Assembly: GCA_003971905.1 (NCBI GenBank)
Contig: RSEE01000164.1
Span: 1 to 64,000, forward strand
DNA length: 64,000 nt
From: Moniliella sp. 'wahieum'
Lineage: Eukaryota > Basidiomycota > Moniliellomycetes > Moniliellales > Moniliellaceae
Direction of reading: 5' to 3'
The notes beneath the pieces were generated by a model. The model did no database searches. It saw only the letters and a list, made by a program, of their open reading frames with translations, and was not told the origin of the DNA. Of this stretch, positions 7,019 through 53,935 are shown one piece after another (the stretch's first letter is position 1; each line of letters begins with the position of its first letter). The position numbers and the translations under genes were made by a program.

Positions 7019-7602
7019 GATGAGGAGTACTGGGTGAAGGTGGCCTGCAACCGTTGCCATGCACTTCAAGCACAAGCACTAGACAGACAGGCGCACCCAA
7101 ACCCTACCGCCGACAGCTGCGGCAAGTTTTTTGTAGGGTTTTCCCTTTTTACCCTGGTAGTGTTGAGCTCAATTTGCACCGAACCGTGGAATTTGAAATT
7201 TTGAAGGAAACTACTACCGTGGGGTCACAATGAGCGGTGACGCGGTGACGGTCACCTGACCTGACCAGCTTCCAGCTTCAAGCTTCAAGCTTCAAGCTTC
7301 ACTAGTGAGGCCCTCAGGCCTCGTTCCCATTCGCTGATTGGTGGCCTAGTGTTGTTGAGCATCAAACTTGAACATTGAATGTTGTCTGGGGGACCGGTGA
7401 CCTCACCGGTACCAGAGCCGGTTCGCGGCCCGGGGTTACACCGGTGATGCAGGTGATGGATGATGCGTTGCGCGTTACAGTCGATTGACGATCCCATCCT
7501 GCTGGCGGCTGGGCCCTTGGGCCACACTCCTCCACTTCTCTGCTACCCTCCGCCCCACGGCGTGCCCCCGTGCTCGACAGTGCCCCGCACACCGCCTCCG
7601 GG
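7019..7602. promoter_or_regulatory. Divergent promoter region between RPL36 and the SPX-EXS gene
   Basis: Both flanking genes point away from this interval, so it should hold both promoters. An AAACCCTA element lies near 7100, on the RPL36 side. At 7278–7320 there is a run of 7-bp units (TCA-AGCT three times, TCA-CTAG, TGA-GGCC, TCA-GGCC); see the separate entry. No TATA box is obvious. Confidence 0.5.
7278..7320. repeat. Mixed heptad tract TCA + 4-bp palindrome
   Basis: Reads TCA-AGCT at 7278, 7285 and 7292, then TCA-CTAG at 7299, TGA-GGCC at 7306, one C, and TCA-GGCC at 7314. The 7-bp spacing holds for five units while the palindromic four bases change twice, so this is not a simple microsatellite. 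Confidence 0.9.
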
Positions 7603-10552
7603 ATGAAGTTTGGCCGCTACCTGGAGGACAATGCGCAGCCGGAGTGGCGCCGCGCCTACCTCGACTACAAGGGCCTCAAGAAGCTCATCAAGCAGGTCCA
7701 GGGCCGCCGCGCTCAGCGCATCGCTGGGCAGCGTAAGCTTGCTGCCATTTCCTCCTCGCCAGCTGCCCGCCGCTGGGGCAAAATCCGGGCCAGCTTGTTT
7801 CTTGCTGGCCGCACGTCATCCGGCGAGCACCAGCCGCTTCTGCCCAGCACACCGGCCTCAGGCGGACCTCAGAGTCCGAGCGCATCAGGCTACTTCTCTA
7901 GTGGTGCTCCCTCTCCACTCCTCTCCCCTACAGTAAACGTCCCTGCCGATCTTCCTTCCATCGATTTGGCCAAGACACGCATGACGATCAATGAGTCTGT
8001 CTGCTCTGTCCCGCTTCATCCTTCCTTTGCTCCACTTGACTCAGGCATGGGCCCCACCGCACGATTTGCTCCATCGCACAGCGGCCTATTTCATCCAACC
8101 GGTAGCTTGCGGAGAGGCCCCATCCGCCCGCCATGCCTTCAGTGACGGAGGTGGGCGCGTCGACCCCTGTACATTCCGACGAGGCTTCGTTTACCTCACC
8201 ATCCTCCGAGGTGGACCCCTTGGACAACGTTCAAAAGGCGGCCAATCGTACTTACCTCAGCTTGGTTGAAGCCCACTTTGACTATCCCGAGCGCATCTTC
8301 TTTGCCGGTCTCGATTCGGAACTGCACAAGATCAACACATTTTACCTTGAACGCGAGGCGGAGTTTGAGGCACGCTTCGCTATGATTGCCCGTCAGTTAC
8401 GCGAATTAGTCGATCATCGTCGTGCGTTCAAGCGCCATGCCAGCCAGCATAATGTCTTGGGCCATATGCGCCACTTTGTGGACCTAGTACCTGGACTACC
8501 GCACAGTTCCGCCCCAGAATCCTCGGGAGATCATCCTCCAGGTAAGCCCGGCCAAAACCCGTCTGGCCATACAACGCCCGGCCGCCAAACACGCCCCGAG
8601 AGTACGCGTAGGAGGGATAACCCTCCTCTCCGACGGGTCACCACTATCTACGATGAAGAGGAGCGGCGTTGGGTAGCCGCATTGGATCATGTACCTTCTG
8701 CGGTGGCGGAGCACATCATTGCCGATGATGAGCGGACAAGAAGCGATACTGCGGCTGCGGTTCAGAGCCGGGATCCTGAAGCGTACCTGGCCGCAGCCAA
8801 GAAACTCAAAAAAGCTATGATTGAACTGTACCGCGGTTTCTGCATCCTCAAAAACTACGCGATTCTCAACCGCACAGGCTTCGTCAAGATTCTCAAGAAG
8901 GCCAGCAAAGTATTTGGTATCCATGGCTTATCGGACGCTTACCTTGCAGCTCAGGCTAAGCCTTCGCCGCTTTACACCTCGCACACAATCGACGATCTTA
9001 TAAGTTCTGCTGAGGAGCTGTTTACGGCATACTTCGAGCAGGGTGATCGTAAGCGAGCGTTGACGCGCTTGAGAAGCGTAACTAGTGGGTTTGATTCGAC
9101 TGCTCGAACCCATTATGCCTCAGTCTTCCGGGCTGGCATGGCGACGGGCCTGGCGGCAACGATGACCTTGGATGCCGTGGGAAATGCGCTAGAGATTGAT
9201 CCCCTGGCTCGGGGACCAGAATGGGAGTTTTTGGCGTGTTTACACGGCATTTTACTTGCCCACTACCTTTGCGTTTCTTTTCGGCGTCTGCCGTTTGGCG
9301 TTCCAACACTACCGCATCAATGCACCCTTCATTTTTGAGTGGGATCCACGGTCCACATTAGACCCTCATCAATCATTTGAACTGCCGGCTTGGCTCTTGC
9401 TTTCACTTGCTTTGGCTGCACGACTCTCGTTTCCTGACCCGGATGAGCCTGGACCTCCACCTTCCATCCCCCCCACGGCGTGGCCTGCTATCTGGTTGGC
9501 TGCAACAATTTTTGTCCTTCTTGTTCCGATGCGCGTCTTATGGCCCGATACCCGTGGATGGCTGCGCGAGGCTGTTCTTCGCGTTCTGTCAGCTGGCTTA
9601 GTTCCTACGTCCAGATATGCAGTCCAGTTTTCTGACTTCATTCTGGGTGACGTTGGCACCAGCTTGACCTTCTCCTTATCCACTTTGTGGCTGATGCAAT
9701 GCCAGTATCAACGAGGGGGATGGACCTGGAGCCAAGCTGGGAACGGAACATGCGACCCCAACACAAGCCGCTGGACAGGAGGCTTGTCCATGCTACCCCC
9801 ACTGATTCGTTTAACCCAGTGTCTACGCCGTTGGGTCGATTCGAGGCAAACGGTGCACTTGGTCAACGGTGGTAAGTACACGGTCAGTATTCTCAACGCG
9901 TATGCATACGCCCGCTGGCGCTGGATGGGATCGGGTCCAAGTGGACTTGGCTTGTGGCTGTGCACCGCAACACTCAACTCGGCCTACTCGGGTTCATGGG
10001 ATGTGTTGTTGGATTGGTCCTTGGGCAAGACACGCCCCGGGCTGGGGCCTGATGGTCAACCCCATCGGCTCGGCAAGCGGTTCCACTTTTTGCTCCGGGC
10101 AGATCTGATGTACCATGAGCAATGGCCCGTGTACTACTGGGCAATGGCGAGTGACTTGGTTCTCCGTCTTTCTTGGCTTCTCTACCTCATCCCTCTCCCT
10201 GGTTCCTTGTCCAGTGGGCTGGCCCGAGCTTTACTGGTGGCTTGGCTCGAAATGTTCCGGCGATGGCAGTGGATGTTCCTACGTGTGGAGAACGAGCATT
10301 TGGGTAACGCGGATCGTTACCGTGCCACGGTTGACATGCCTCTACCGTACGATATGTCCTCCGCTCAAGAAGACGACAAGCACCGCTTCGGCCATTGCCC
10401 AGACACCCTCCGACGGATTTGGCACCGATGCTGACACCAATGCCCCCGAATCCGACGACGCTGATACGGGCGTCAGCGACGTCGAGGGGAACCGGCTCGG
10501 CAGCAGGATTCTTCTCGTTCAAGCCAATGAACTCTATACATTGTCGTTTTAA
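7603..10552 (+). CDS. SYG1: SPX-EXS domain membrane protein (Syg1/Xpr1 family)
   Basis: Family members sense inositol pyrophosphates through the SPX domain and, in XPR1, export phosphate through the EXS domain. The N-terminus MKFGRYLEDNAQPEWRRAYL with YKGLKKLIK is a classic SPX start. The SPX core continues after a Ser-rich insert (RIFFAGLDSELHKINTFYLERE; LYRGFCILKNYAILNRTGFVKILKK). The EXS half has several membrane segments from about 9230, then NAYAYARWRWM and the family motif LEMFRRWQWMFLRVENEHLGN near 10250–10310. Frame changes near 8125, 9230 and 10375 are needed; no splice signals explain them, so I call them indels. The last exonic frame ends at 10552 with a Ser/Asp-rich tail. The start at 7603 is the first residue of the SPX consensus. 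Confidence 0.88.
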
Positions 10553-10948
10553 TCGCATCTTTCAGTGTTACACCCAAAGCCATCATGCAGTTCTATGTCT
10601 CCTTGTCCCTCTTCCGTGCTCATCCGTCGATTGGAGCTTGAGCGTACTATCTATGGTTTAAAAGCGGTCCTCCCTCCATTTTACTGTGCGTACTTAGTAT
10701 CTAGTCCATCTTAGAAACTTCTGGCGCCTATCGTAAGAGTGAGATCCGACCGATCACTACATCTGGGGCCCCCTAGATCGTCGTCCAAGGTCAGCGCGGT
10801 CAGCGTACTAGCTAGCATTCAAGAATTCAAGGATGACAGATGAGATCGACAGGACGTGCTCAGAACCCATCTGATCGAGCATTGCGAATCCCGTGAATTA
10901 CAAGCGAAAGGTCCAAAAAGATGTGATGGAGTGAGGGCATACTTGGAC
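10553..10948. other. Convergent spacer, no gene seen
   Basis: Separates the 3' ends of the SPX-EXS and synaptojanin genes. It holds presumed 3' untranslated sequence and short TCA-type words near 10810–10835. Confidence 0.6.
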
Positions 10949-14340: not shown

Positions 14341-14697
14341 CGGCGGCCGGAGGTGGTGGGGGCGGGGCGGCTGTGCGCCGCCGGCTGTCCCACGTGCCGG
14401 CCTGGGCGGTATGGGCGGCGCAGGCGGCGCTGTGGATGAGCTGAGCTCCATTCCGCCTCGGGCCTGGCCGCCAATTCCGCGTCGTTGGAGGGGCCGAGGG
14501 GTGCACAGGAGGACAGACGGCCAAGCGCGGCCTGGTGCTGTAGACTGATGATGCATGATGCATGATGCATGATGGTGCATCGGTGACCGGTGACTATGGC
14601 TGCTAGAAAAGTGCGACCGAGTGACTCACTGATGACGCGATGATCGATGATCGATGACGCTTGACGTCAACCTTGCCGCTTGCTGCGACGCTCGAGC
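14341..14697. promoter_or_regulatory. Divergent promoter region, synaptojanin / Zn2Cys6 factor
   Basis: Lies between two diverging genes. The part at 14546–14671 is dense in 7-bp TGA/TCA units, so any regulatory site here would sit within that repeat grammar. The section 14341–14450 may instead be coding if the upstream synaptojanin ATG is used. Confidence 0.45.
14546..14671. repeat. Heptad tract, TGA-TGCA, TGA-CCGG and TGA-TCGA units
   Basis: TGA-TGCA repeats three times from 14549; TGA-CCGG-TGA lies at 14584–14593; TGA-TCGA repeats near 14641–14654; and a perfect TTGACGTCAA palindrome lies at 14661–14670, a sequence that also fits a CRE-type bZIP site. Confidence 0.85.
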
Positions 14698-17951: not shown

Positions 17952-18554
17952 CTTAATCATCGCCCGAGGGGAGGCGAGTCGCCTCTGATCTCCCCAAGAG
18001 ATCTTAGCCTATTCTCTCCGCGCCCTCGATGCCTGCCGAAGAATGGACTGGATTGGCCTCTAGGCCGTTACACTCTACCATAGTTTTGCTTTCTGTACGC
18101 CAAGGAACTAGGACGATTGCCACACTACAGACGTCCGAAATGCGTTGCTTTGAAGCGAATATATATCTTCGCCCTACTTGCAACCTACGGAGCCCCCCAG
18201 GTAGATGTGCTGCCATCCGAGAATTGGATTGAACGTTTAGCGTTTATCTGAAGTTCAACGTTCAACGTTCAATTGGAGAGCATTGAGATATTGAGACCTC
18301 AGAGGTTGGACAGGGCGAGCTCGGAGGCAGTCCTCCCAAATCGGGCGACTTTGGCCTTGATTGGCACTGTCCCAGTGCTACATCGCACCCCCGCCCGCGC
18401 GTCTTACTCGCGAGCAAGTGTGGATCCTGTATTTTCCCTACAGGATCTTTGATCGCGCACAAAACGTTCGTTCCCGTGTCCACCACCACTGTTTTTTTTA
18501 CCCCCCCCCCCCTCTCCCCACTCTCTCTTGTTAATTGGTCGTCGTTCGACCGCG
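17952..18554. promoter_or_regulatory. Spacer upstream of the MFS gene
   Basis: No gene seen. It holds TCA-ACGT units at 18255–18275 and a C run of about ten bases at about 18501–18512, just before the MFS start. This is presumed terminator of the zinc-cluster gene and promoter of the transporter. Confidence 0.5.
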
Positions 18555-23392: not shown

Positions 23393-23477
23393 GCTCAGCC
23401 CTGGCATCGAGTGCTTCAGCTTGATTGAACGGGGATATTTCCTGTGCTATGCTTGTCCTGTACTTTTTATCATTCAT

Positions 23478-24220
23478 TGACAGAGCTTAAGGCTGGGACA
23501 GGGGGAACGCTACGTCTAAACCGAACCGCTCATCTTGCGGGGGTTGTTTGAAAAGCGCGATTAAGGTCAAGGAACCAAGGGGATCACTATAGGATATCAG
23601 GACCCTCCGGCTCTCGTCATCCGGTCCCGTACCCTAGGTAGCGCGTGTGGACACGGATGAACGTGGTTGACATCCGAGCGAGGAACCATTTCCACTGAGA
23701 CTTGGTAGCCAACTCCTTCCAATGCGCAAACAACTTGACGCCTTTGCCGCGTCGTAGTATCCCGCGTATCCTCGCGTCGTCAAAACCAGGGGGAAAAAAC
23801 GTCTCTTGAGTGCGTCCCTGGTACTTGACGTTCTTGTCGCATTCTGCTTGTTCAAGCAGCAGAAGCAGTTCCTTCTCCCGGCGGTTCCAGAGGCGACGCA
23901 GTGCTCTCATGTACCACCCGCCGGTACGTACGCGCTCTGCGCCTCATGCGTTCCCATGTCGCGCAGCGTGTGGTCGACCTCCATTCCGGTTCCTCCCAGT
24001 GCTCCAGGCCCCATCACGCGGTAGTCGGTGCGCTGTGCCCTCGGTCCGTGCCTCGTCCCATCCTCGCCTCCACCATAGGTTCGTCATATATATTTTCTTC
24101 ATGGGAAAAATCGAGCTTCCTCCACACTCGGGTCGTGAGAATCTGGGTGTCCGGGATCTCTACTTTCTGCATCCATATCAATGCCATGCTCATGCAATGG
24201 TGGATGGATACTACTTACAA
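23478..24220 (-). repeat. Unnamed dispersed family, copy A
   Basis: The plus-strand left edge carries ATTGACAGAGCTTAAGG. About 600 bp match copy B (38906–39650) closely by eye, including GCGCGTGTGGACACGGATGA and GAGTGCGTCCCTG. The coding sense is minus: a peptide with RREKELL…LLEQA and GRTQE is shared by both copies. This copy looks decayed. I do not recognise the family; it may be a host gene family or a mobile element. Confidence 0.75.
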
Positions 24221-24475: not shown

Positions 24476-24499
24476 TGAAGCTTGAAGCTTGAAGCTTGA
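24476..24499. repeat. Heptad tract TGA-AGCT
   Basis: Three full 7-bp units and one TGA. It is the reverse complement of the TCA-AGCT tract at 7278. Confidence 0.9.
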
Positions 24500-24855: not shown

Positions 24856-24883
24856 TCATCGATCATGCATCATGCATCATGCA
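24856..24883. repeat. Mixed heptad tract TCA-TCGA then TCA-TGCA
   Basis: One TCA-TCGA unit is followed without a break by three TCA-TGCA units, all in one 7-bp register. Confidence 0.9.
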
Positions 24884-25519
24884 CAGTGTCGTGTCAGATC
24901 AGACTGAGAATCAGAGTACTGACTGACAGGGTACCTGATCGAGTCCCCTGAAGGCCTGGCTTGAGCACCTGAGGCCTGAGCCTTGAGTATTCGCATGTCA
25001 CAGTGACGTGTCGCATCATGCATCCTCGAATCATTTTCATCCGCGAATACCATCGACACCAAGCTCTTCAAGATCAATATTCATGGGTATATTGGGCAAT
25101 TAACAATTGGAGATGGGTGAACATGGACGTACTTAACAAGGAGGTCGGTGTATTCAGCGCAGTGTCTCTTTGTCCCAGCCGTAAGCGCGTACGCGCACAA
25201 GCTCTGTAAATGATAATAAGGCGCAATTTAACCTAAAAGCCCTAAGGCTTAAGGGCCTAAGGCCAACCAACAGAGGGGGGGGTATGTATACCACAGGACC
25301 GTGTTGTTTTCAGCCTGGCTCAGGCCTTCCTCAGGTACCGGAGAGGAACGGCTGCCACGTGGCTGCAAGTGGATAAGATACGGGCCCAAGTAAGTAACAA
25401 GATTTCTTGGTCTGTGCGTGGATGCAGCGATAGTCGATAGTCGATAGTCGATAGCACAACCAGTGTGGCTTCTGGCTCAGCGATAGGGAACGGTGAGTAG
25501 CCTCATCATGCAACATTCA

Positions 25520-25547: not shown

Positions 25548-26711
25548 CGTCATGTGGGATCTGAGACGCAGGACAGCAATGTGTCACAGGCTCACCGCTC
25601 ACTGAGACGCGTGACATGTAACCAAGTGACGGCCATGCATCATGCATCATGCACTCTCCTTCTATGGCTCCATGGAGCATAGGGAACCCTGAGGCTCAAG
25701 TCGGAAATCATCAACGTTCAACAGCACCATGTCAAGTTCGTTCCACCGGAATTGTTTTGCCACCTGGTCATCCGGCCATTGCATGACGACACGCGGGTCC
25801 TATATACGCCACCAAAAGACGGTCAACAAAAGAGATAATGGAGTAACTCTGGCAAACCTTTACCGAAGACGATCTGAAGAGTCATTTTACGGAGGGAGTG
25901 TGGTTCATCGATTCATCGCTCGAACCGGCTAAACCACGCTCAATCTTTGAATCCATGGCGCGCCACACATCCTATGGAAGTGGGTGACGGGATAGAACCA
26001 TAGGGACCCGAGCTGTTGGCGACTTCACTAGGTCCCCTAATTTTGGCCTTGCACGAGCAAAAATGCAGCACATGCACGCCGAATGAGCAACCCCGGCCTG
26101 CTAAGCGCAGCGATTCTTTGTACATGCTATGATTTTTTATTGCATAGACAACGAAAATTTGATCGGGCGCAATGCTTTGTTTTGGGAGACGAGGAACGAG
26201 ATGCGATCGAGATAGGCAAGAGAAAGCAAAGAACAGAAGAGACAATGCTCGTAAGATTGAAGGCAAATGCAGTCGTACTCAGCCGGTGCCGCGTAAGTCG
26301 TGCCGCCTACGCAGCACAGCTTCATGAGCAACACGACCGAGAGTTGGGAGGCAAAAAGCGATAATGCAAGCCGAGACGAGGGGGAAGACCCACACCGAAG
26401 AGCAAGGAGCCACAGCGGTGGGGCCAAGACGAAAAGAAGAAACAATACAGTTGCGGACATCAAAATAAGCGTACAAGGCCAAGACCGCAGGCATAACAGA
26501 GGGTTTGGCAAGAATAGTGCCTCTGCTGTTACAGGCCGATGGAAAGGAACCGTGCTCGACAAAGAAAACTCGGTGAACACGGTAGAAAAGAACAATCCGT
26601 GGTTGATGAGAGATGAGAGATGAGATCCTCGATGAAGGGAAATGGAAATGACGAGCAGGCCAAACTGACCCTGACGGGCTCAGCCTGAGCCATGTTCAAC
26701 CTGATCCATCA

Positions 26712-30340: not shown

Positions 30341-30374
30341 TCAACGTCTCAACGTACTCAGTACTCAGTACTCA
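30341..30374. repeat. Mixed heptad tract TCA-ACGT then TCA-GTAC
   Basis: TCA-ACGT at 30341 and 30349, then TCA-GTAC at 30358 and 30365, ending in TCA. One or two extra bases separate the first units. Confidence 0.85.
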
Positions 30375-31155: not shown

Positions 31156-31207
31156 TCACCGGTAGGTACGGTCATCCGGTCATCGATCATCGATCATCGA
31201 TCATCGA
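31156..31207. repeat. Heptad tract TCA-CCGG and TCA-TCGA
   Basis: TCA-CCGG at 31156, then four perfect TCA-TCGA units at 31180–31207. Confidence 0.9.
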
Positions 31208-34200
31208 ACAGGCCACAGGGTAGCTCTCTCATCGATGCTGCCTCTCAGGCTCATCGATTAGATCTTATAAGATTGGCGTCGAGTACACACTGAGGATCGA
31301 GGACTGTGTCTCAGTACCCTTGTCCTCCATATATCGATGGCGCAGCCAGGGGCACCGGCACCCGATCATCAATGAAATGTCAAATTCAAGCATTAATAGA
31401 TTGATTAATTGATTACTGGTCTAAACGTGATCCTGTACAGCCAGCATCATGGTATTTTGGGCAGCGAGCAAAGTAGGGGCAGAAGTGGTGGAACCGGGCC
31501 GCCATGCACAGGTATACCATCGTATGAAAGCGATATATGGTGTAGAGTTTCGGTCACAGTGTGTTCAAAAGTCATGATTATCTCGACGAGTTGCTCAGAT
31601 CTTCCCCTTGAGATCTGGCATTGGCATTGGACCAAAAGTCGTCTTCTTTTGCTCCTCCCCCACACGCGCCCTTCCCACGATCAGCCTATAGTCGGGATAA
31701 TCGATGGCCTCTTCGCACACAACCGTCCCATATACCACACCAGTGCTCCAAGCATTATGTGTTTAACGTTTACTGTGTGGCCTGCTTCCTATATGGTCTT
31801 ATATCTCTGTTGCCACCAGCCACCCAGCTCATCAATTTGTGGGGGGGAAGGATTGTGGGGTCCAGAAGCTGTGTGTGGTCCGAACTCCACGACAAGGGGC
31901 ACACGATAGTACACAAGTGAGCCACATGTGAGCGCAATCCTGTGGAAAATGCGTAATAATCGCGTAATCTCTGGGCGACACCTTGCTATCATTGAATCAT
32001 CCTGGTTCGCGATATTGGGCAGCCAACAATGCTTGTGAGGGGTCCACGGTACACCCTGTGTGTGGTACTCCCATTCCCGCCTTCCCTCGGAATATGCATT
32101 CCACACATGCCAAGCTCGCCTATGTTGCACGTTGCATGTCAAGATCAAGCAACAAAAGAGGTCGACTGCTGAGGCCAACACCCACAGTGTCTGGTCGGGA
32201 GCAGGTGGGAGTGGCTCTGACATGCTGGCCAAGCTATAAGCACTAGGCTTAGCGCCAAGCGCTAATGGCTAACGCTTTCGGCCTGGGCCAAGGCCTGCCA
32301 GAAGAAGGACTATTCTAAGACCAATCAAAGACCACCGCTCACCGCGCTCACCGGTCACCGGTCACCGTGTACTTTTTCGGATCGGCATGGGATATGGATC
32401 ACATAGATCATCGATCACACGTATCCGTTTTGCCTTCCATTAGCTTTTCTGGCAAAGGTCTCTTAAGTTCTGAAATCGGATTGTGCCAGGTTGGGCCAGT
32501 GTTGAATGTACGTAGGACGTTGAACGTTGACACGTTCTTAACGTTCAATGAGTCTGGTCCAGTAAAGTCAGCCAATAAATGTTGCGCCATAGAAGACGGT
32601 ACGCGTTAAGGGGCTTGTAACCGCACGCTACCGCACGTTGGCTACACGGAATACCCGGATCAGCCTCGCGTTCAGATCTCGGCAACATGTGAGCGCTGCG
32701 TCCTACTGCGCCTCAGGCCCTCCTCAGGCCTGAGCCTCACAGGCCTCAGCGACTGAAAGCTGAATCGCTGTGCCTGCGGCCATAATGTGTGGTGGTCGAT
32801 GGTCGGTGATCGATGAACGTGATGAACGTCTGAACGTTCTGAACGTTGAACTTCAACTATATGAACTGTTGAACGTTGCACGTTATCTGTGACATGTGAT
32901 ACGTGACAGGTGACATGCATGTGACAGGTGAGATACCTGTCACATGCACTCAGGCGTAGCGTGGCTGCGGAGTTTGTGACCATCTCGGTTCCATGGTGCA
33001 TGATGTGCGTGATGTATGATAGACTGCATTATATAGTGAGGAGGCGAAATATCTTGCCCCGAATCTGGTAGGCCCTGCCCTCCTTTTTGCTGTAGTCTCA
33101 TGAATTTCATGTTCTTTCGGCCATCACCTCGTAACTCCCGATTGGGATTACAGCTAGCCCTCTCTGGTTCCACCCCTGATCTGATCCCGACCCGATAGCA
33201 TATGATAGTTGAGCTAACATATACGTGCCCCTGTGGCCAATAATATAGTACGAGACAGGGAAGAAGTTGTATGAGATTTGATTCCCACTTGAACCATTTT
33301 CCAAATCTTTTTTCCTACTACGAGTAGCAGTCTATTTATGGCCCCCCTAGCCCTTCTGGCTATCGTGGCCAGCGAATAAATGCAAGAGAAATCGCCACAG
33401 ATATAGCGACACTCCTCTTCACTATAGCTTGAATCCTCAAGTCAGCATCTGATTTGAAAGGACACACGAAGCGAGGACTCCGGAGTCAAGCGGGAGTAAC
33501 AATGCGAAAATGACAGAAGAGAGTCAAAAGATCGTTCGCTTTTGATTGCAATCTCAACGCGCGATGAGATGGCTCATCAAATGGTCGCATGTCTTTACAG
33601 CCGAAGCTTGGGACTCCTCGATTCGTTAGTAGTGGCTTTTGTAAGGCTGAATGGCCGCGACCACATACGTTAAAAGCAATTATCGTTCATACATGATGCT
33701 CATTTTGGAAATGGTTCATCGCGTCCATGCCCTAGCCACGTCCAGAGTGGCGGTGGGAGAGAGCTGAGAGCTGATGAAGAGGTCGTCACTTTTGTGTGTA
33801 GGGGTGTATATAAACACTTTTGGACGGTCAGCGAGAGTCACGCATGGCATGTCCCCGGCTTCAGATTCAGTAACGAAACCAATCGGGTATAGAGAGGAAA
33901 AGAGACCCACTATTATAGATTGGGTGTGGTTTCCGGCGCGAAGCCCCTGCTCAGGCTGCTCAGGCTGAGCGCTGATCAGCAGAGTCTTCGGCGGCGGAGC
34001 CACGTGCGCATCCCCATCAGGTAAAACCAGATGAAAGGGTTCAGGAACTCGGAGGGAATGCTGCTGCTTGCCTTACCGTTACCACTCTCAACGCGGGACT
34101 ATGCGGATAGAAACCGAATCCTAAGTAACTGTGAAGGCCAAGAGCGCTCCCGGATGTATAACCAGACACGCATTGAACTGCAATTGCGACAACGTGAGGT

Positions 34201-38356: not shown

Positions 38357-38425
38357 TGAACGTTGAATATTGATGCGTGATTCAAGCGATTAATGATGAG
38401 ATCGATGATCGATGATCGATGATCA
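38357..38425. repeat. Mixed heptad tract upstream of SIP5
   Basis: TGA-ACGT, TGA-ATAT and TGA-TGCG run in register at 38357–38377. TGA-TCGA repeats at 38406–38422. Four different 4-mers use the same spacing. Confidence 0.88.
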
Positions 38426-42769: not shown

Positions 42770-43030
42770 TACTCAATTTGTATAGATCGCTGTATCCCTT
42801 GACGCTTTCTTCTGCCACAGACCGTTCTCGTCTCCTGTCTGCGGTTGCCACGTATCATTACTGTGAACCAGAAATTGGATCTCAGCCTGAACTCGTATAT
42901 ACACGGTACGTGGCGTCAATAGGGTTCGACTGCTTGTTTCCCCCGTTTCGTCTTGGTAGTCCGCACAACCCCCCCCCCTTCCTGAGGGATCCCCCGCCCT
43001 CACCCATACGCTACGTTCCACTATCAATTT
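42770..43030 (-). repeat. Very weak possible copy F of the dispersed family
   Basis: The minus-sense peptide RSVWVRAGD resembles RVWVEAREGG in copy B, and orientation agrees. DNA similarity is slight; this may be chance. Confidence 0.2.
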
Positions 43031-43513
43031 ACTATCTGCAACATCTGGAAAACGATGGATGGAGCAATGAGTAATGTTGCTGGGTGCGGACAGACAAAAA
43101 AACAGACATCAAGTCGAAACGGGCTCGGTCGACAGAAATGACCTCAGTGCGCCTTTGTGTGTGTGCAACCGTTCCTTGCCCTCTTTCTCATCTTCACTTC
43201 CTCTTTGTCCCAGGCCCACGGGGTGATGGGCGTGATTTGCAGACAACTGAACTCTCAAACACGGAAGGTGGGCGAGAGCGAGGGGCGAGATGAGACGAGG
43301 CAAGGTCAGGTGAGGCGCAACAGGCGGTGTAGGTGAGGAGGAGCGTGGCAGAGGCGCATGAAACGAACACGGGCAGGGGCGAAAGTAGAGGCGAGAGCAG
43401 AGGCAGTAGAAGAAACAGGTGCAGAAGTATAGGGGAAGAAACTGGAGCAAGAGCACAAAGAGCATAAACAAAATGCAAATGCAAGTGCGAAAGCAGGAGC
43501 AAGAACAGGACCT

Positions 43514-45211
43514 TCAGGGGCTGTTACAAAATGTGACCACGGAAGCGAGTGGGGTCCGGGTTGAAGACTGCCGGACTGGCGATCGATGGGTCTTGAATCG
43601 GGGTTTGCGAATGTGCTGCGGGGGGGTTGAGGTCCCCGGAAGCGGGTAAGGGTGGTACACATGCCGATTAGGAACGGAGGACAAGATAGGGTGAGTTTGT
43701 ATGGAGTTGTGGAGGGCAAGTTGGTCTTGCAGGCTGAGACTGGGCAGACAGGGACAAGGATCGCCTTCGGGCGATTGGTGCCGATGCAAGGCATCGAGGC
43801 GAGCAAAGACCTTACCACAGAGGTGGCATGTGTGCGGACGAATTATAAGATGCAACTTTTCGTGCCGTCGTTTGTCGTGGGCACGGGCAAAGCTGCGTTC
43901 GCAAAACCGGCATGCGTAGGGTCGCTCGTGTGTGGGAGCGTAGGTGACCACGTAAATTGAGGGCACGGGTAAAAGATGATTCGCAGCCGGGCACGGGGCA
44001 CTTGAAGGGGGCAGCGCTCTTGCGCCGTGACACCGACGCGGCTTTGGTCTTGGCAGTGGTCACTTGCAGGTTCTGAATTGGCCGGGCTAGAAGGTCGCCT
44101 TCGACCACAGAGGAGCTGTCGGAGGAAAGGGAGACCGAACCGGTCCGAGAGAGCGAAGAGGAGGAGAACATGGGTCCTTCTGACTCCCCAGGACTGGGCG
44201 TGAGAGTGGTAGGGCTTGTAGAGATGGACCTACGATGTTCACGCGGAGAAATCTTAATCGACAACAACGGCGAGTCGTCAATCGCCGAACTAGGGACGCT
44301 GCTGCTGCCATTCAGTAGGCTGGGGGCACCCAGGGCGCTCTGCACGCTCCTTGGTGAGGTGTGTAACGAGGAATGGAGCACCGTATGTTGGGGTACATGA
44401 GGGCGCAGTTGGCTCTCGTACTGGTCTCGCGATGGTGACAAGGGGACAGGCGCGGCGGCCAGCGGCACCGGTACAACTCAGCCCCAGTAGGGTCAAAGTG
44501 AACCGTGAGTCGGTCCAAGGATTCGGGCGTTGCAACAGGTTCGATCTTGACTTGCGGGTGTGCATAGGTGCGAGTAGGCAGTGTTTGGGGAGACATGTCG
44601 GGGCGAGCATGAGGGTGTGTCTCCGTCGGCGCGGAAGCATGTGGCGCCAGAGATGGTGGCGCCATCTGCGACGGAGACGGTACGGGGACCGAATTAGCGA
44701 CGGGTTGGTTGATACCGAGAAATTGCTTGAAGTGGTCGTAGGAGGCGCTGCGGAGCTTGGGAGAGGGAGCAAGAGGAAGGAAAAAGTGGTCGTACTTGAC
44801 AAGCGGGGCTGAGTGGGGTTCTTCAAAACCAATGGATCTGGAGGCGGGGGTAGAGGTTGGCATGCTGGCAATGGTGCTGCAGGGCGTTGAATCGCTGGAG
44901 TCGGTGGGCGCTAAACCAAGACTTAGAGAGAGGCTTGACAGCTCACTGCTGGGAATCGCTGCGGGCATGACCATCGGCACCGTCCGAGAGGGCGGCAGCG
45001 GCTGAAGCGGAAGCGGTGCAGAAGCCGCTGGGCCATCGGTGGGGAGAAACCCGCACCCGTAGCGTTCGGGAAGCCGGGACTCCAGCTCGGGAACATGGTG
45101 GTCGAGAAGGGAAAGATGGGGCGGTGCGGCCACAGCAGGTTGAGTGAGGCACAACTGACAGGGGAGACCGGTGAGAAAGTCGGAGCCAGGGGGAGCAGAT
45201 GACTGTGTCAC
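43514..45211 (-). CDS. C2H2 zinc-finger transcription factor, Crz1-like
   Basis: Three fingers. Finger 1: FKCPVPGCESSFTRALNLRGHLRSH (C-x4-C-x12-H-x3-H). Finger 2: YACRFCERSFARAHDKRRHEKLH. Finger 3: HTCHLCGKVFARLDALHRH, whose FARLDALxRH is typical of calcineurin-responsive Crz1 proteins. A long Ser/Pro-rich activation-type region precedes them. The frame breaks between fingers 1 and 2 in a short CA run; two missing bases would give the usual THERPYAC linker. Another break lies near 44460. In-frame ATG 44974 is the first, but coding-like sequence with a Cys pair continues up to about 45211, so the true start is unresolved. Crz1 identity is inferred from finger layout only. Confidence 0.75.
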
Positions 45212-45426
45212 ATGACGCGTGACAGCAAGGCTTGGTATAAGACAGAAGAAGGAAGGAAAACAGGTATAGGGTCAAGACAGGGTTGATGGTACGTTGATGT
45301 GAGCCAGGTGAAACCAATGTGGTCCGCACGCCACTAGCCACTCTGCACCGTGTGGACCAGAGACCGGGGATAGAATATTGATGGTTTGCCATCATGCATC
45401 AGTCGACTAGCCAGTATCACTAATAG

Positions 45427-45457
45427 TCACTAGTCACTAGTCACTAGTCACTAGTCA
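45427..45457. repeat. Heptad tract TCA-CTAG
   Basis: Four perfect 7-bp units followed by TCA, just upstream of the Crz1-like gene. Confidence 0.92.
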
Positions 45458-46207
45458 CTGTGACCAGGACCACTCCCTGTCACATGTAGTGCACTACTCG
45501 GGTGGCCCTGATACCTGAGACCGGACTGAGAGCTCAAGCTTTCAGGCTGAGCGGGCGCGCGGTCCCTGGTCTATCTGCTCGCGCTCCGCCGGCTGAGGGC
45601 GCTGAGGTCTGGCGCTCAGTCTGAGCGTTCATCGGCTCATCAACGTCATCAACCCATCCATGCATCATGCACATCATGGATCACCGATCATCGCGCTATC
45701 GCTCCCCGTTAAAACACGTTGTAACAAAATACGAACGTAAAACTAAACTAAACGTAAGGCGTAACATGCGTAGCGCGTAACGCGTAAATGTGGAAACGCC
45801 ATACATTCGTATTCATATCTAAGAGCTCAAATGCCACAGAAGTCACGAAGTCACCGGTCACATGTCGTAGGCATGCTGGCAGCTGGACGCTGGACGCTGG
45901 ACACTGGACGGGCTGGGCGAGAGCTTGACTAGTTGACTCGCGGTTGGTTAAACTCAGTTATTGGATCCTGGGTACTGCATTGCTAGGTCTGTGGGCGGTC
46001 GGGATATCTGCGTGTCAATGGCCAAGACCAATCGATGACCAGCACGGTGGCTGATGGCGCTGAGTGGCTGAGCGCTGAAGCTCTGGGTACCGATGTACTG
46101 ATGCATGATGACCAATGATTAATGATCTGGATAAATGTACAGAGTAAAACCGGTGCCCCAACCGGGCTGCTCCCAAGCTGAGCCAGCAGATGCAGAATGC
46201 CTCTTCC

Positions 46208-46235
46208 AGCTTGAAGCTTGAAGCTTGAAGCCTGA
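46208..46235. repeat. Heptad tract AGCT-TGA
   Basis: TGA-AGCT units in register, the last one TGA-AGCC. Confidence 0.88.
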
Positions 46236-47326
46236 GGACTCGGTGCCCAATCGATGATCGATGAGCAATGGTCTAGATTCCATTTGGACCCTTGGATTGC
46301 AACAGCAAAAACGGTGGCTCCGAGGTACAACAGGGTGCAATGATCGGTGTTCAAATCGATCAGAGACGGTGGATACTTGAAGCTTTTGAATTGAATGGTT
46401 GAACGAGTTGAGCGTTTGAACCGGAGTCCGGCAGTGGGAGTCGACGGTGGCCGGTGGAAGCAGGTGGAGCGCGGAGCCCACATGGGGCTGGCAGAGGGTG
46501 AGCGTGAGCCTCAGCGCTGATGCGCTGACCAGGGCTTGAAGTGACGTTTGCCTTGCCTGCCGGTGCTGGCCCTCCCACACACGGGTGCCCAGCGCCCATC
46601 ACCGGCACCAAACGTCGAGCTGAGCGGCTCAGGGTGCGCACAAGCTGAGCTCAGCCTGAGCGCGTATCCACATCCGGCTTCCAGCATCCCGCGGATCCTA
46701 CGGCTAGGGAAGCCGGCAGGGCCGAGCAGAGAGGGAGTGCGGGGCAAGAGCAGGCTACAGTCTGCTATCACATGTGGCAAACAATGCAATCTCGGATGTG
46801 CCGGTGACGCGGTGACGTGACGCATGTGATCATGTGATATCGGTGCTGCTTCGGGCGGGGAACAAACAGATGCGAACAGCTGTGGGTAGTGCAGGGTAGT
46901 GGGTGGCGTCTGTGCACGCCAGTCCGGGCAGCGCCCACGGCCGCCAAGAAAGCCGCCTCCAAACCTCAAATCTGGATCGTCGCCCCCCGACCGGCCCGAC
47001 CCACGTCACCACGGCAATGAAGCAACAAGAGCCCGAGGCGCACAGCTATCGCGTATGTATATACGGTTGTCATTAATCATTTCTTCCTTCCACTTGTGGC
47101 GCCACACCGGTGTCTTCATGCGGTAGCCGGTAGCCCAAAAGGGCCCTTCCTTTTCCGGTGCATATTCCATCCTGTGGAGGCAGGAATATTCTCTAGCCTC
47201 TGTTGCTCATGTTCAATGCAATATACTGGCACCAACTGTCTGCTTTCCGCTTTTCTACACCCCACCATGCTACAACAGCAACTTCTATGAGCCACCAATA
47301 TCTTGGGTACAACATCAGGCGCTGAG

Positions 47327-47391
47327 TGGTAACGCGCGGTACGGGTCTTAGACCTGGTAACGCGCGGTAAGGGTCTTAGACCTGGTAACGC
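47327..47391 (+). repeat. 28-bp tandem repeat, about 2.3 copies
   Basis: Units start at 47327, 47355 and 47383 with TGGTAACGC. The two full copies differ at one base. Each carries GGTCTTAGACC, an 11-bp near-palindrome. Confidence 0.85.
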
Positions 47392-47611
47392 CGATGGGTA
47401 TAACCGGCGGTAAGGTCTCAGATTCAATATTCAATGGCCTCAAGGAAGAATTGCGTGGAGCGTAGAGCAAGTCATGTGGTGGTCATGGCACAGGAGAGAG
47501 AGAAGGATAGGAAGACTGGGAAGCAGCGAGAGAGCCTGGGTGCCCGCTTCCCAAAATGCCGCAGCAGAGGCCTGCCTGAGGCCAGTGAATGATGGCAAAG
47601 GCGTCTCTACG

Positions 47612-47625
47612 TCACGCGTCACGCG
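47612..47625. repeat. Heptad pair TCA-CGCG
   Basis: Two units in register, with more TCA-CGCG, TCA-TCGA and TCA-TCCG words up to 47690. Confidence 0.85.
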
Positions 47626-50600
47626 CGTCTGCGTCAGGCGTCATCACGTCATCGATCATCCGCATGCCATGCACGTCACGCGTCACAACGATTAATTACA
47701 TGTGACAGTGATGTGTACCGTTTGACGTGGTGTGGCGTTTGGTGCGTTGGGGATACGGGTAATTTGAAGACAAACTTTTATCTCAGAGCTTTTAGATACC
47801 AAGACAATAATTAATAATAGTGGATCATCGATCACCCATCATGCATCACGTTTCGTCCATGGCCTTACGGCCTTACCGGTTTGTGGCTCGCAGCCTTAGG
47901 TCTTAGATCTTACCGGTTACCGGTTACCGGTTACCCATTTCTGGTTTCCGGAGTATATCCAACGCTGTTGGTACTGTCACAGTCAACGTCAACGCGTCAA
48001 ACGGTTGCGTTGAACAGGAAGAGGCACCTGAAGGCACTAGCATGGAATACTGATCTATGTACTGGATATACCCTTTTAGCGGTCTGCTTGAGCGCTTAGC
48101 CTGAGCGCCCTGAGTGCATTCTTCTGGGCATACTCCTTCCTCTGGTTTGTACTTCGGGGTACAGTATAGTTGTCGGAGAGGCGAGCAAGGCAGGGGTCAT
48201 AATGGTGGTGATGCAATCAGAGGGAGGCCGACGCCCTGAGGCGCAAACAAGGAGGGATGGACCAGGCGAAATCATGTTCGTCGCGCGAGGACACCCGACT
48301 GGGGTAGCAGCTGTGCGTTCCGCGGCGGTCACGGTTCCCAGTTAGGCTATATAGTTAAGCCGGCTACGTCAAAACGTTAAACGTTAACAAAGCAGGTTCA
48401 ACGTTCAACGTGTTCGTCGTTTAACCTTCAGCACCTTATTGTAGAGCTCGCTGAACGCGCTGAGCGCGCTGAGCTGATCGATAAACTTTAGTCTTTGGTT
48501 ACCGGTTAGCGGTTAGCGGAGTTACCGCTGTTAGTGCCATGTTATGCATGGTGTCGGTTACCGTTTAATTACCCCTTAGCGCTTACCGTAAGCGCTTACC
48601 GCTTACCGCTTACCTATCACTTCTCGATAACAAACGGGAACGCAGGTGTGTACCAAAGACGTACACAACTGTGTGGCACAACTGTGACAGCACTCTCACT
48701 TAAGCCACCAGCAGCGCTCCAGCGTGGAACGGTGGCTGCGGTGGCGGCAGTGGTGGCGGTGGCCCAGCACAACAGGCTGGGGCGAAGCCCAGACCGGGCC
48801 GTAGCCCGATGGTCTCCTAGTAAACGCTAGTAACTAGTAACCGTGACTGGTCGGTCACTCGGTCAGCTCGGTCATCTCGGTCAGATCTCCGAAGTCAGAT
48901 CTCAGACTGAGAGGTCAGAGATCCCAGAACGTGAAGTACAGAGGCCTCAGAGGCCTGAGAGGCCTGAGGCCGTTGATGTTAAGACTTCGAGGTGTGACAT
49001 GTGAGGCGCGTGACGCGTGAATCTGAGAGGGCCTGAGGCTCAGCCGTCGCGCTCAGGTCGCGCTCAGAGCCTCAAGAGGAGCGCTGGCCATTAAATAGTT
49101 CGTCGAGCCCCTTCTCTGTGGGACAAAAAAATGAAAGGCTAGTGCATAGTGGATGGCATGATGCATGATTGCTGCCTTCCAGAGGTTTCTAGGATGTGGG
49201 CTGGGCTGGCGCGCTGCTGCGTGACGCGTGACGTTGAGACCCGACCGACCTCGGGCCGAGAGGTCCCTTCCGCCCCAGACATGTCGCACCTGTTTTTGTT
49301 TCCTCCGAGGCCCGAAGGGCTCGAAAAGGGACCCTCGCGTGCCTTGTCTTAGATCACTGTCCCGCTTACAGCCCGGCCGACCGGCTCCCCTTGGCGTGCC
49401 TGCACCCAACCGCGCCAGGCCACACCGCACTGCCACACCGTAACAACATCTGACGCGCTTTACGCTTCCACCAGCTAAATGATCCCATACACCACATGTC
49501 TCGCATGCGACACATATCAAGTTGCTCAATTTTTAGCGCATACTAGTTAGTTAGGTGTGACGTCACGCATCACGTTTGACGCGGTAACCGGTAACAGGTA
49601 ACCGTAAGCGCGCTAAGCGTTAAGCGTTAAACGTTAATCGTTTTATTAAGCAGTTGTCGTCATATGGCCCTTAGTCGTGAATCCGGTAATCGGCCTTCCT
49701 TGTCTCCTTCATAGCCATGTCTACTCTCTTCTGACAACGAAACCTTTGCCTGTTTGAGTACTTGGTTCTACTCGTCTTCCCCCAAATCTTACAGCAGCGT
49801 TAGTATACTGTGAAGAGGCTCAGTACTCGCATTTGATTAATCAGTGCTGTAGGTTCAACGTTCAACTGAACGTGCAGGTTCAAAACCTGTTCAACCCGTC
49901 CACCGTGCTCCACATTACGAGATACCTGGCCTTGTGAAGCAGGCTTGAGTTAAAGGAATTAGCATGACAGGAAACAATTGTCGCTGAGGGTACTCTCGCT
50001 TTTCGCTTCCGAACCGCCGATGTCTATTATAGCACGATCGGATACGGCTGAGCGTACTGGTTAACGTCCCGGGCGGACCCCAGCGTAGGCGTCAGCGCGG
50101 GGGGTTGAGATGCATGCGATCCCTGAAGGGTCGACTCAAGGGATGTTCGAGCGTGGGCTTATTGATGGATCTGAGCAGGGGAAGGGACAAGACGAGGCTT
50201 CTCGGCGCATTATAATAGCAAACACGGCTATTGGTGTGGCGAGGCTGCGTAAACACTACCGGCCGGTTGGGCAGTACAGGAACGTGTGTCTGCAGCGCGT
50301 TTTGTACTCTCGGGGACGAGAAAAGGCCCAGCGTGGGTCAACGCTGGCGCAAACGTTTTGAACTGGTCCGCCAACCGGATTGAAGTTGATTATAAAAGCT
50401 TTAATTGGACGGAAAGATGCTGGAACACTGAGCGCGACTGGCAATTTGGAGCTGTGGCAGGTGGCAAGGTGATAAGTGAAAAGGCCTAGAGGGATGAGGC
50501 AAGTATACAAGAATATGAGTTGCCTGTACCGTATGCACTGACGAAGATGGAAAGACCATCAATAGGGCGAAGACACGCCAATTGATTGTGGGGGAAAGGC

Positions 50601-50977
50601 ACGACCCATCAGTTGCTTACAGACGGTGACGGGGCCACACACATATAATACGCAACACCCGATGTGTGTATGACCCTGTTCTAGATCTTCTTTGATCTCT
50701 TTGTGTATACGTCTCTCTCACCACGCATCGTTTACCGTTCGATTGCTTTTTCCTACCTCTGGTATGTGAGAGGCACCGTTCCATGGAGCCTGAATGGATA
50801 CTATAGATATCCAAGCAATCCCCCCTTCACACGGGGGGGTAAAGAGGAAACGGAGAGACCGTACCAGATCGAGGAACAAAAAGGAAACAACGGATTTGCA
50901 GCGTTGGGTCCACGCTATGGACGAAACGTGATGCTGGGTATGAATAACATCTCTATTCTGTGTAACCATATAATTGA

Positions 50978-52220
50978 CAGAACTTAAGGTTAGGACAAAG
51001 AAACGCTGTGCCCTATATAAGCCAACCGTTCATCCGGGCGTGTGCCGCTTGTTAGCACCAACCCGTTACGGTACCCCAGCACGTAAACCGATCCGTAGGC
51101 CCGGCGTCTCCTAGTAAAATAAACAGGCACAAACAGGCGACTGCCGTCGCCAACAAGATCCGTAAGTCTATGTCCGGTCTGACCATCGGACCTGTGTTTT
51201 TGACCGTTTCGCCTGTCAAGACTGGAGAAGCATGAGGTGTCATGGTTTGGCTGATCCTCGCTTCCATTCCCAAATAAAGAGGGGGGGGGGGCAAAAAGAA
51301 CCGCGGCACCGAGGATTCCCATGTGGTCCCCCCACCGTAGTACTGACTGGCGATACTGTGGTTAACTTCGCAGATCGGACGGGATGCGGTGCTTTACAGT
51401 TCTATGGCCGCGGATGCTCAAGGTGTTTGGAGAGGGGGGTATGGGGGGGGAGGGTGTATTGACGGGGGGATCCTGAGCGTCTCGCTTATTCCCTATTTCT
51501 TCCCACTTTGCACCATACTCTCTGCTCTTGCTTCTTTCCCCACGAACGATTGTTACAATCCCTTGACCTAGCCCCGATTCTGGTCTTCTTCGAATTGGCC
51601 CCGACTGTGACAGACATAGGGCTTTAAATTGGATGGAATCAGCTAAAAGCCACGTAACATTTGACAGGCATAAGTAATGAACGACGGATCATTTCCACAT
51701 TCATTAATGAGAGACTTTGTCAACCTTCTTCAATTCCAGTGCTCACACATCCATAATAGCCACTTGTTTTGTCATGACCAAAGGCGAAAGCCGGCTGCTA
51801 TTGGTGTGATCTGGGCTCTTGGTGCTCTTGTCGCATTCCGATTGGTACAACAATCGGGTGCCACTCATCCTCTCGGCCGTCCACACACGCATTTCCACCT
51901 CCTCGTGTATCGCCTTTCGTTACACGAGAAAGTTTGGCCTCCTTCGTACTACCCAAGTCTCTCACGGTGCGGTTCATCTTCATTTCTGATCCTCGGAATC
52001 CTCCTGTGTTCCCATCATTCTATAATCCGTGTACCTGACATTCTCTCTCTCTCCTCTCGTCTTCTTTCTCCACAGCCGCTGTTCATTGAGTGGGTGTCCT
52101 GGATCGAACGAAGAAAAGCATTTGAAAGCCGCCTCTCGTCCCACACCTCCTTGTGCAACGTGCCAAATGTTTGGATTGGTTGCGGGTGCAGACCAAGTTG
52201 TGTGCCCCCACGATTCTTGT
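50978..52220 (-). repeat. Unnamed dispersed family, copy C
   Basis: ATTGACAGAACTTAAGG at 50978 matches the left edge of copies A and B. Similarity to copy B resumes around 51805–52200, for example GTGCAACGTGCCAAATG against ATGCAACGCACCAAACT, and the minus-sense peptide MKMNRTVRDLG against MEMDHTLHDTG. The middle part is unlike A and B. Strongly diverged and probably decayed. Confidence 0.55.
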
Positions 52221-53322
52221 AGCCTTCATCATATAGATCTAGGAGAGTCGCGATTAAAACGGGTCAGATAACATTGGGGAGAGTTACATAGATACCAGCG
52301 AAGTGTGAGGTGTGTGTTCAGGATCATGGATTAGGCACATGCGTTCTTCGATGAAGCGATCGCTACTTCATGCATCCTTAAGTTTCTGGCGAGTCGAGGG
52401 GCGGTAACCATTAGCCCACACGGGTTAGAAGCGATCCATTCGCTACTCTCGTCTCTCACGTACTAGTCACAACCGATAGTGAGGGTTGTGTGCGATGCCC
52501 TCACGCATAAGCTTTGGCTGCACTGGTTAAAAAGACGGGTACAAATTGGTCGTGTGTCGAAAAAAAGGGTAAAAGATCGAGTGAGGGAGACGAGGAGGGA
52601 GATTCAGCGCTCAGGCTTGAGTGGAGCTCCCAGGCGTTGGTTGATCGGTGGTGTTTGTCTTGGCTGAGCGTGAATTTTGCGCTGAATTTGCATGACTTTC
52701 TCGAGGGCCAGAGCGGGAAAGTATGGATACGGTGAGGTCTTGTTTGATGAGACATGGTCTCCGGATGGCCCTCTCGAGTGATGCAATCACACTCGGTGGT
52801 GACGGTTGTGGTCTAAGTGATACAACCAACAAAGCGCCTATAGAGAGGAACTCATCAGCAGTCAGTCACCACCAGGAGGGGCTATAGGGGCTATAGGCTG
52901 CGGAATACGGAAAACACAGAAGCGTAATAGTGGAAACAATGGAACTCTCCTCGGCCTGAGGGGAAAACTGGGACCTTTCCAAAACACGCGAGCAACCCGC
53001 GGGTGGCTCAACATTGTTGAGTTGGGTTGTGGATCGACACAATCTGCAATGTCACAACATGTCACTGTGACGACCGACAGCCTGTGAAGCGCGTGATGCT
53101 TGAAGCTGTGTTGGTGCACGTTGATGCTGCTTGATGAGCTTGAGGCCTGAGGGGCCTGAGACTTGAATTAAGTCAAGGCTCTGTGGATGGGACGTGTACT
53201 GCGATCAATACCTCATGCATCAGCGGCTCCCTACTAGGGGGTCGGAGACGAAGCAGTTTCCCTTTTTTGAAGCTTGCGACCTGAGATCTGCAGAGATGCA
53301 TGGTGAAGAAGAGATGGTGAGT

Positions 53323-53518
53323 GTAACGGTGTGGCCTCCCGGGCGATGACAACCTCGCCCGACGGGGGGCACAAAGGGGAGCCAGCCTCTGGCTCGTCAG
53401 GCAAAGCGACCAATCGTAATGTAACGGTGTGGCCTCCGGGCGATGACAACCTCGCCCGACGGGGGGGCACAAAGGGGAGCCAGCCCTCTGGCTCGTCAGG
53501 CAAGGGGACCAGTCGTAG
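53323..53518 (+). repeat. 98-bp tandem duplication
   Basis: Units begin GTAACGGTGTGGCCTCC at 53323 and 53421. Both carry CGGGCGATGACAACCTCGCC and GCCAGCC…CTGGCTCGTCAGGCAA, a stem-forming stretch. The copies differ mainly in G and C run lengths. Confidence 0.88.
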
Positions 53519-53907
53519 GCCCGAAGCGCGCGAGCTTCGCACCAGAGAGACGTCCTCCCTACTGCCTTCCTAGCGATAGCGTTCCTAAGCTGAGTCCTGG
53601 AGAAGGCGGCGCTGAGGGTGGACGTAGGACAAGACGATTGGTCGCTTGCCTCCATGCATTCTTAGTACAGAGCGGGTCTTTATATAGGCAGGCAAAGGCC
53701 CGCAGGTTGTACAATAGGCAAGCGGCTAACTGGGTCTGTTGGAGACCACAGCGGCTGATAGCTCCGTCGATCCGCACGCGGTACTATCGGCGATCGAAAC
53801 CGATTAGAAGCCAAGAGCGAACGATAAGCAGCGGCGGCGCCAACGGAAATATTTCCGGTGGCTTGCTGCGCATCGCCCCGTGACAGTGAGATCAGAGAGT
53901 GTTCAGT

Positions 53908-53935
53908 TGAACGTTGAGATCTGAGATCTGAGATC
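53908..53935. repeat. Mixed heptad tract TGA-ACGT then TGA-GATC
   Basis: One TGA-ACGT unit and three TGA-GATC units, all in one 7-bp register. Confidence 0.92.

Follow-up and report, generated by a model that had tools for sequence, protein, structure and literature searches.

The stretch of DNA considered here, positions 1-64000 of contig RSEE01000164.1 (C164) of Moniliella sp. 'wahieum', is referred to below as the window and belongs to an assembly of 69,493,810 bases in 223 contigs. Its open reading frames (ORFs) carry SPX, inositol phosphatase, Zn(2)-Cys(6), MFS and CBM21 domains, by which the window is fungal, and mostly outside the long ORFs lie short units in which two copies of a triplet TNA (N, any base) flank a self-complementary tetranucleotide. 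The original prediction described these as 7-bp units of TCA or TGA plus a 4-bp palindrome, a pattern that is confirmed here as real, genome-wide and sharper than first described. The unit is better regarded as a duplicated pentamer (NNTNA or TNANN) around a 2-nt inverted copy: with u the dinucleotide adjoining TNA and rc(u) its reverse complement, the elementary product is uTNA -> uTNA·rc(u)·uTNA, or the mirror image, and each event adds 7 bp, namely the two nucleotides of rc(u) followed by u and TNA once more. The rc(u) filler lies directly against u, and the 4-bp palindrome is in this way formed automatically, as a by-product of the rule and not as a built structure. TCA and TGA do dominate, yet the rule holds for T-N-A with any N.

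First, the excess is large and widespread. Below, P denotes a self-complementary 4-mer and TSA stands for TCA or TGA; counts refer, unless another scope is given, to a 304-kb sample comprising the window and 24 sampled 10-kb loci (L009-L032), and expectations for unit counts come from Markov-3 simulated sequences. TNA-P-TNA with the same N in both triplets (equal-N units) occurs 343 times versus about 12 in simulations (centres CC 146, GG 143, AA 31, TT 23), and unequal pairs, at 58 versus 25, are somewhat above expectation. Over all TNA-P-TNA (401 versus 37 simulated), the two triplets agree in 343/401, compared with 12/37 in simulation, which rules out a fold-back giving TCA-P-TGA. The dependence on TNA is plain from the control triplets, which stand near background (observed/simulated: ANT 30/28, CNG 93/96, GNC 115/93), and from the equal-N units per 1000 triplets, 31.2 for TNA versus 0.75, 0.90 and 1.45 for ANT, CNG and GNC. 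TSA-P-TSA numbers 308 versus 17.0 simulated (standard deviation 2.9), and where eleven palindromes had been listed, each of which does occur, all 16 are present, from TGCA (68) down to TATA (3). The window alone holds 106 equal-N units versus 2.55 simulated. TSA-N4-TSA is in excess at period 7, and N4 is palindromic in 195/345 cases outside ORFs of 120 or more codons and in 103/295 inside them (a crude proxy), against a naive expectation of 6%, which bears out the predicted excess of palindromes after TCA or TGA. The 7-bp periodicity likewise survived its test, in that 54 of the 65 exact period-7 runs of at least 18 bp found in 264 kb are of the symmetric type, with 0 such runs in block-shuffled sequence, and single units make up 185 of the 236 TSA-bounded tracts (18.5 simulated). 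Three tandem copies of TCAAGCT occur 495+551 times genome-wide, the same letters reversed 0+0 times. The 24 loci together contain 237 equal-N units versus 6.4 simulated, with at least three in 20 of them, and extrapolate to ~67,000 units genome-wide (bootstrap 44,000-94,000); four of these loci contain repeat matches seen before round coordinates were chosen, and without those four the figures are 148 units in 20 loci and ~50,000 genome-wide. Palindromes of 6 bp between TSA number 7/387, where a rate of 1 in 64 predicts ~6. Around TNA, non-palindromic stems of 4 bp show no enrichment (61 versus 50 simulated), on which count a general excess of hairpins was rejected, and a scan of viral contigs gave no match to four tandem copies of TCATGCA.

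Second, the flanks of the units reveal how they are copied. The rule was first read from indels between haplotypes and then tested on the 304 kb, where the complete 12-mer uTNA-rc(u)-uTNA has 392 placements on both strands versus 0.67-2.75 simulated, and the ANT, CNG and GNC forms have 7, 4 and 11 (simulations 2.25-3.25). Genome-wide, the rule product GGTGACCGGTGA is found 1594 times and its reversed-letter control 59 times, the wrong-flank version CCTGACCGGTGA 111 times (reversed-letter control 13) and the ANT version GGAGTCCGGAGT four times; TGAGGCCTGAGG, which is GGAGTCCGGAGT with its letters reversed and is itself a rule product, is found 1449 times. Copying is one-sided. Among 198 isolated equal-N units, 152 have a 2-base flank match on at least one side (left only 72, right only 58, both 22, neither 46), compared with 1.55 of 9.75 (~16%) in simulation, and left and right matches are negatively associated (odds ratio 0.24, p=3.4e-6), indicating that one side is copied per event; a symmetric 7-bp duplication whose flanks then decayed is ruled out by the same association. 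An inverted copy of nearby sequence with return to the original template is supported by the 12-mer excess together with the allele pairs described below. The central N of one-sided units (G 56, C 49, A 16, T 8) is near the TNA triplet background; per triplet, a C or G centre is found at twice the rate of an A or T centre (36 versus 18 per 1000), the outer stem base is C or G at 37 and 43 per 1000 versus 15 for A and 21 for T, and AT-only stems are among the lowest (AA 6.0, TA 7.8, TT 10.9, AT 16.8 per 1000; others 16-70). At TNA the prevailing length of the inverted copy is 2 nt, and lengthened versions with TNA directly after u have 33 placements for loops of TNA+1 and 41 for TNA+2.

Third, a diverged second copy allows alleles to be compared. 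Window 21145-54183 is matched, in reversed orientation, by contig C48 (45001-55000 and 61001-81000; L033-L035), in pieces that are 67-95% identical overall and 77-95% identical over window 45001-49800, and the 69.5 Mb assembly may comprise two haplotypes or subgenomes. The window-C48 alignment has 23,088 columns, 20,217 of them identical, and 21 indels of 7 bp versus 12 of 6 bp and 12 of 8 bp; nine of the 21 are (TNA-P) heptads in some rotation. In the clean allele pairs, GGTGA in the window faces GGTGACCGGTGA in C48, and TCTGA faces TCTGAGATCTGA. Single units are identical in the other copy in 12/28 cases (window) and 12/30 (C48), longer arrays in 0/10, after 36 further instances of any length had been dropped for poor flanks. 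From these comparisons the process appears to have been active within the divergence of the two haplotypes. The units and arrays of the window are the following, with the state of the second copy where it differs.

7278..7308, plus strand: mixed array TCA-AGCT x3, TCA-CTAG, TGA; its last triplet, TGA, places it outside the equal-N counts
14549..14572, minus strand: TGA-TGCA x3 array
14641..14657, minus strand: TGA-TCGA x2 array
18255..18271, plus strand: TCA-ACGT x2 array
24476..24499, minus strand: TGA-AGCT x3 array; second haplotype shorter
24856..24879, plus strand: mixed array TCA-TCGA, TCA-TGCA x2, TCA; C48 has extra units
25116..25120, plus strand: single GGTGA; C48 has GGTGA-CC-GGTGA (+7 bp), an exact rule product
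25582..25588, plus strand: TG-TCA-CA; C48 has TG-TCA-CA-TG-TCA plus one substitution
30358..30374, plus strand: TCA-GTAC x2; C48 has one 7-bp unit fewer
31180..31203, plus strand: TCA-TCGA x3 array
32348..32364, plus strand: TCA-CCGG x2; C48 has one unit fewer
32829..32833, plus strand: single TCTGA; C48 has TCTGA-GA-TCTGA, an exact rule product
38357..38373, minus strand: mixed array TGA-ACGT, TGA-ATAT, TGA
38406..38422, minus strand: TGA-TCGA x2 array
45427..45457, plus strand: TCA-CTAG x4 array
46212..46228, minus strand: TGA-AGCT x2 array; C48 differs
47483..47487, plus strand: single TCATG; C48 has (TCATG-CA)x2-TCATG, two rule products
47903..47933, plus strand: mixed array TTA-GATC, TTA-CCGG x3, TTA; C48 lacks 14 bp of it
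48499..48508, plus strand: GG-TTA-CCGG-TTA; C48 lacks 8 bp
49585..49637, minus strand: units TAA-CCGG-TAA and TAA-ACGT-TAA, at 49585-49594 and 49628-49637
52604..52613, plus strand: TCA-GCGC-TCA; C48 has one unit more
52663..52669, minus strand: GC-TGA-GC; C48 has GC-TGA-GC-GC-TGA-GC
53908..53931, minus strand: mixed array TGA-ACGT, TGA-GATC x2, TGA

The four changes of palindrome in register to which the original prediction had drawn attention are all present (AGCT to CTAG at 7278-7308, TCGA to TGCA at 24856-24879, ACGT to ATAT at 38357-38373 and ACGT to GATC at 53908-53931), as are its TTA and TAA variants, and its contention that plain slippage cannot produce such changes is right. Of the four copying choices open to an existing unit, three repeat the palindrome and the fourth takes in the outer flank, by which mixed arrays would be expected to match both outer flanks: of the 14 equal-N arrays with mixed palindromes, 12 do so, one matches at one end and one at neither, the palindrome having switched in register because two independent events each copied their own outer flank. 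The array at 24856..24879, for instance, has a left flank GA and a right flank TG that fit its outer palindromes as the rule predicts. Pure arrays (n=41) match at one end in 24 cases, at both in 14 and at neither in three, and the rule simulated on random sequence, with event number and mutation rate not fitted, returns the same array classes. Drift by point mutation from one palindrome to another was set aside by eye, as neighbours in mixed arrays seem to share the inner or outer pair no more often than chance palindromes do. Could these be heptanucleotide microsatellites of the ordinary kind, in which words that can form hairpins are favoured for expansion, as CNG triplets are? Such expansion would account for arrays that vary in length between haplotypes and exceed the simulation of independent events, but it does not create the single units that predominate among the TSA-bounded tracts and produces neither the copying of a flank on one side nor the mixed arrays that match at their two ends, and ANT, CNG and GNC heptads, which would fold equally, are not enriched. 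The flank test refutes it as the sole cause, and as an account of the whole we hold it to be improbable; it may nonetheless add array growth.

The placement of the units bears on two further explanations. Their density is 66.5 per 10 kb at positions whose longest overlapping ORF has fewer than 60 codons, as against 1 unit in 34,080 bases (0.3 per 10 kb) in ORFs of 300-399 codons and 6 in 39,002 bases (1.5 per 10 kb) in ORFs of 400 or more, ORF length being the sole proxy for coding status; by that proxy the tracts lie almost, if not quite, all outside coding exons, as had been stated of all of them. Where the haplotypes are less than 85% identical, 51 units occupy 7,640 bases, versus 1 in 3,509 bases at 97% identity or more. 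The fall in density with both ORF length and haplotype identity argues for removal by selection, and we take the scarcity in long ORFs to reflect selection against frameshifts of 7 bp. It argues at the same time against an artefact of sequencing or assembly, which the examination of a single assembly might invite; such an artefact would not respect ORF length, the same units stand in both haplotype copies, and we give it almost no credence. A protein array with 7-bp spacing had been among the causes left open. Arrays of this sort, selected for protein binding or for a role in chromatin, would suit the regular spacing and the position mostly outside long ORFs, but the units seen here have no shared base-specific word beyond T.A, any palindrome is accepted, most units are solitary, and the repeat of the flank in 152/198 isolated units is left unexplained. 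Selected arrays seem very unlikely; among the causes considered at the outset, it is a mutation process with templated copying that fits.

Several other features of these contigs may be recorded here. A 5S rRNA gene lies at window 51298-51415 on the minus strand. Opposite window 47697 is a stretch of ~280 bp present in C48 only (L033, reverse strand, 3687-3970), which consists mostly of TCA-CTAG/AGCT heptads and octads with AGCTAGCT doublings. A dispersed element of ~170-190 bp, at about 47094-47262 of the window, has well-conserved copies with unrelated flanks in L036-L040 and L029, and Rfam gave no hit, with E values up to 1 allowed, across positions 46900-49000. A second dispersed sequence (window 48718-48821; L041-L043; L035, reverse strand, about 4400-5600) resembles the end of a ~1.2-kb insertion in C48, the start of which resembles the insertion at window 23467-24084. 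Among the best 120 of 1250 matches to the window's inositol phosphatase, the nearest named relative is Tilletiaria anomala at 56% identity, and a protein from another assembly reaches 79%; the T. anomala genome is reported as 18.7 Mb (PMC4056295).

Fourth, how might a product of this form arise? The units are probably the outcome of recurrent, sequence-guided micro-insertion, in which templated slippage passes through a 7-nt mini-hairpin with a 2-bp stem and a TNA loop, and which survives mainly outside long ORFs. During DNA synthesis a growing strand ending in uTNA would fold back, two bases would be copied from u to complete the mini-hairpin, and, with the hairpin left extruded, the polymerase would recopy uTNA from the original template. 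Such a hairpin would place the filler against TNA, add 7 bp and make the stems self-complementary. Repeated events would build 7-bp arrays, the palindrome changing when a different outer flank is copied, and the strict requirement for T..A together with the stop after 2 nt would point to a particular enzyme or loop geometry. What we infer here is the enzyme, the polarity and the reason for TNA. The lineage might even have a DNA-synthesis activity, dedicated or domesticated, with TNA as its recognition site and a templated insertion of a fixed 7 nt, rc(u)·u·TNA, as its product; the tens of thousands of intergenic units would be due to it, a proposal that we regard as tentative and lean against. 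A mitochondrial polymerase of the PF00476 family should be present in a fungus; a PF00476 profile search gave no match, a result not trusted as a negative, and the positive control family PF22669 was found.

The same product would be given by break repair through hairpin-opened ends, in which a staggered cut (5-7 nt) made near TNA by a transposase or nuclease leaves one end to be sealed as a hairpin, which is opened 2 nt from its tip before fill-in and joining; uTNA would then be a target-site duplication and rc(u) P nucleotides. This accounts better than the mini-hairpin for a duplicated block of 5, 6 or 7 nt from u (392, 33 and 41 placements), and the genome has matches to one DRMBL domain, presumably of the Pso2/Artemis family, and to two DNA_pol_lambd_f domains. 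Ac/Ds is known to leave palindromic P-nucleotide footprints in Candida albicans, but as described they are heterogeneous, with 28 kinds at one Ds site (PMC5873905), whereas the filler here is nearly fixed at 2 nt. Break repair would further need two unrelated 2-nt distances to coincide, none of the three large haplotype insertions examined is an element flanked by NNTNA duplications, and a PF13359 search gave no match. PF05699 has none either, but that search gave no match anywhere and hence carries no weight. On balance we consider hairpin-opened breaks unlikely.

Templated slippage through the mini-hairpin must nevertheless be set against a number of observations that weigh against it. As to sequence, 46 of the 198 isolated units match neither flank, the ANT and GNC 12-mers (7 and 11) exceed their own simulations (2.25 and 2.5), similar repeats whose loops lack TNA are above simulation (35/79 and 34/85), and the TNA+1 and TNA+2 loops (periods 8 and 9) are inexplicable by a T-A primer pair. 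As to alleles, 12 of the 21 seven-bp indels are not heptads of the expected kind, and of the 58 single units compared, window against C48 and the reverse, 24 are unaltered in the other copy, while the 34 scored as changed take in substitutions and unclear alignments as well. The allele pairs would look no different had a deletion occurred between direct repeats of 5 bp, and the polarity is therefore presumed; when dispersed short repeats were tried as polarity markers, the aligned copies had no heptad difference. As to arrays, 55 equal-N arrays of at least two units are seen versus ~12-16 from simulated independent events, and arrays must therefore also grow in another way. As to chemistry, the hairpin alone explains neither the T..A nor priming from an unpaired end: steric constraints forbid a loop of the single base N, and with TNA as the loop the end that must prime is unpaired, which makes fold-back priming chemically awkward.

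Finally, the birth of short tandem repeats from unique sequence is hard to observe, and each birth here keeps its template adjacent, so that every base of the rule can be read directly and the rule is testable in culture. With its fixed length, fixed 3-base requirement and templated filler, such a mutation process would be well suited to the study of fold-back DNA synthesis, and it shows that regular arrays of arbitrary palindromes require neither selection nor a binding protein. If real, a TNA-recognising synthesis activity would be a sequence-guided source of new tandem repeats and of genome growth. The one control comparison was with 50 kb of E. coli K-12, which hold no 12-mer of the TNA, ANT, CNG or GNC type and seven TNA-P-TNA versus 3.6 simulated, with a flank match in 0/7. 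The E. coli TNA-P-TNA rate, 2.21 per 1000, lies above its ANT, CNG and GNC rates (0.35-0.63).

A literature search, thin in its coverage of subscription journals, turned up no published description that we recognised as the rule, and we know of no process that combines a fixed length, a tie to TNA and such abundance. Snap-back end joining (SD-MMEJ, synthesis-dependent microhomology-mediated end joining) copies a few bases by fold-back before joining, as is proposed here, but depends on break sites, is variable in length and, to our knowledge, is not tied to a trinucleotide. CNG triplet expansions share the odd period and the self-complementarity save for the central base, but enlarge one word, whereas the units here are solitary and their stems free. 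Heptamer direct repeats in bacteria (TAACTGA in Beggiatoaceae, PMC4679880; Xanthomonas/Nostoc, PMC4692102) are also 7-bp and intergenic; they are specific words, TAACTGA does not fit TNA plus a palindrome, and the abstracts give no copying rule. hAT transposon footprints and V(D)J joints similarly place a short inverted end copy beside a duplicated target, but the P nucleotides described in these sources are heterogeneous in length, with no fixed 2-nt filler adjoining TNA (PMC5873905, PMC3528771). Quasipalindrome mutation shares a template switch within imperfect inverted repeats but, as described, perfects an existing repeat, whereas here a new palindrome arises from one 5-mer (PMC3820800). 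A short-range template switch, in the four-point model of Loytynoja and Goldman, makes a short inverted copy of nearby sequence and then resumes the original template, the '4 before 1' return giving insertions; its length (median 2->3 length 12) and sequence are unfixed, unlike the 2 nt at TNA, and the density here is far above the few thousand events reported per great-ape comparison (PMC7954356). Each step, whether template switching, snap-back synthesis or the formation of P nucleotides, has precedent.

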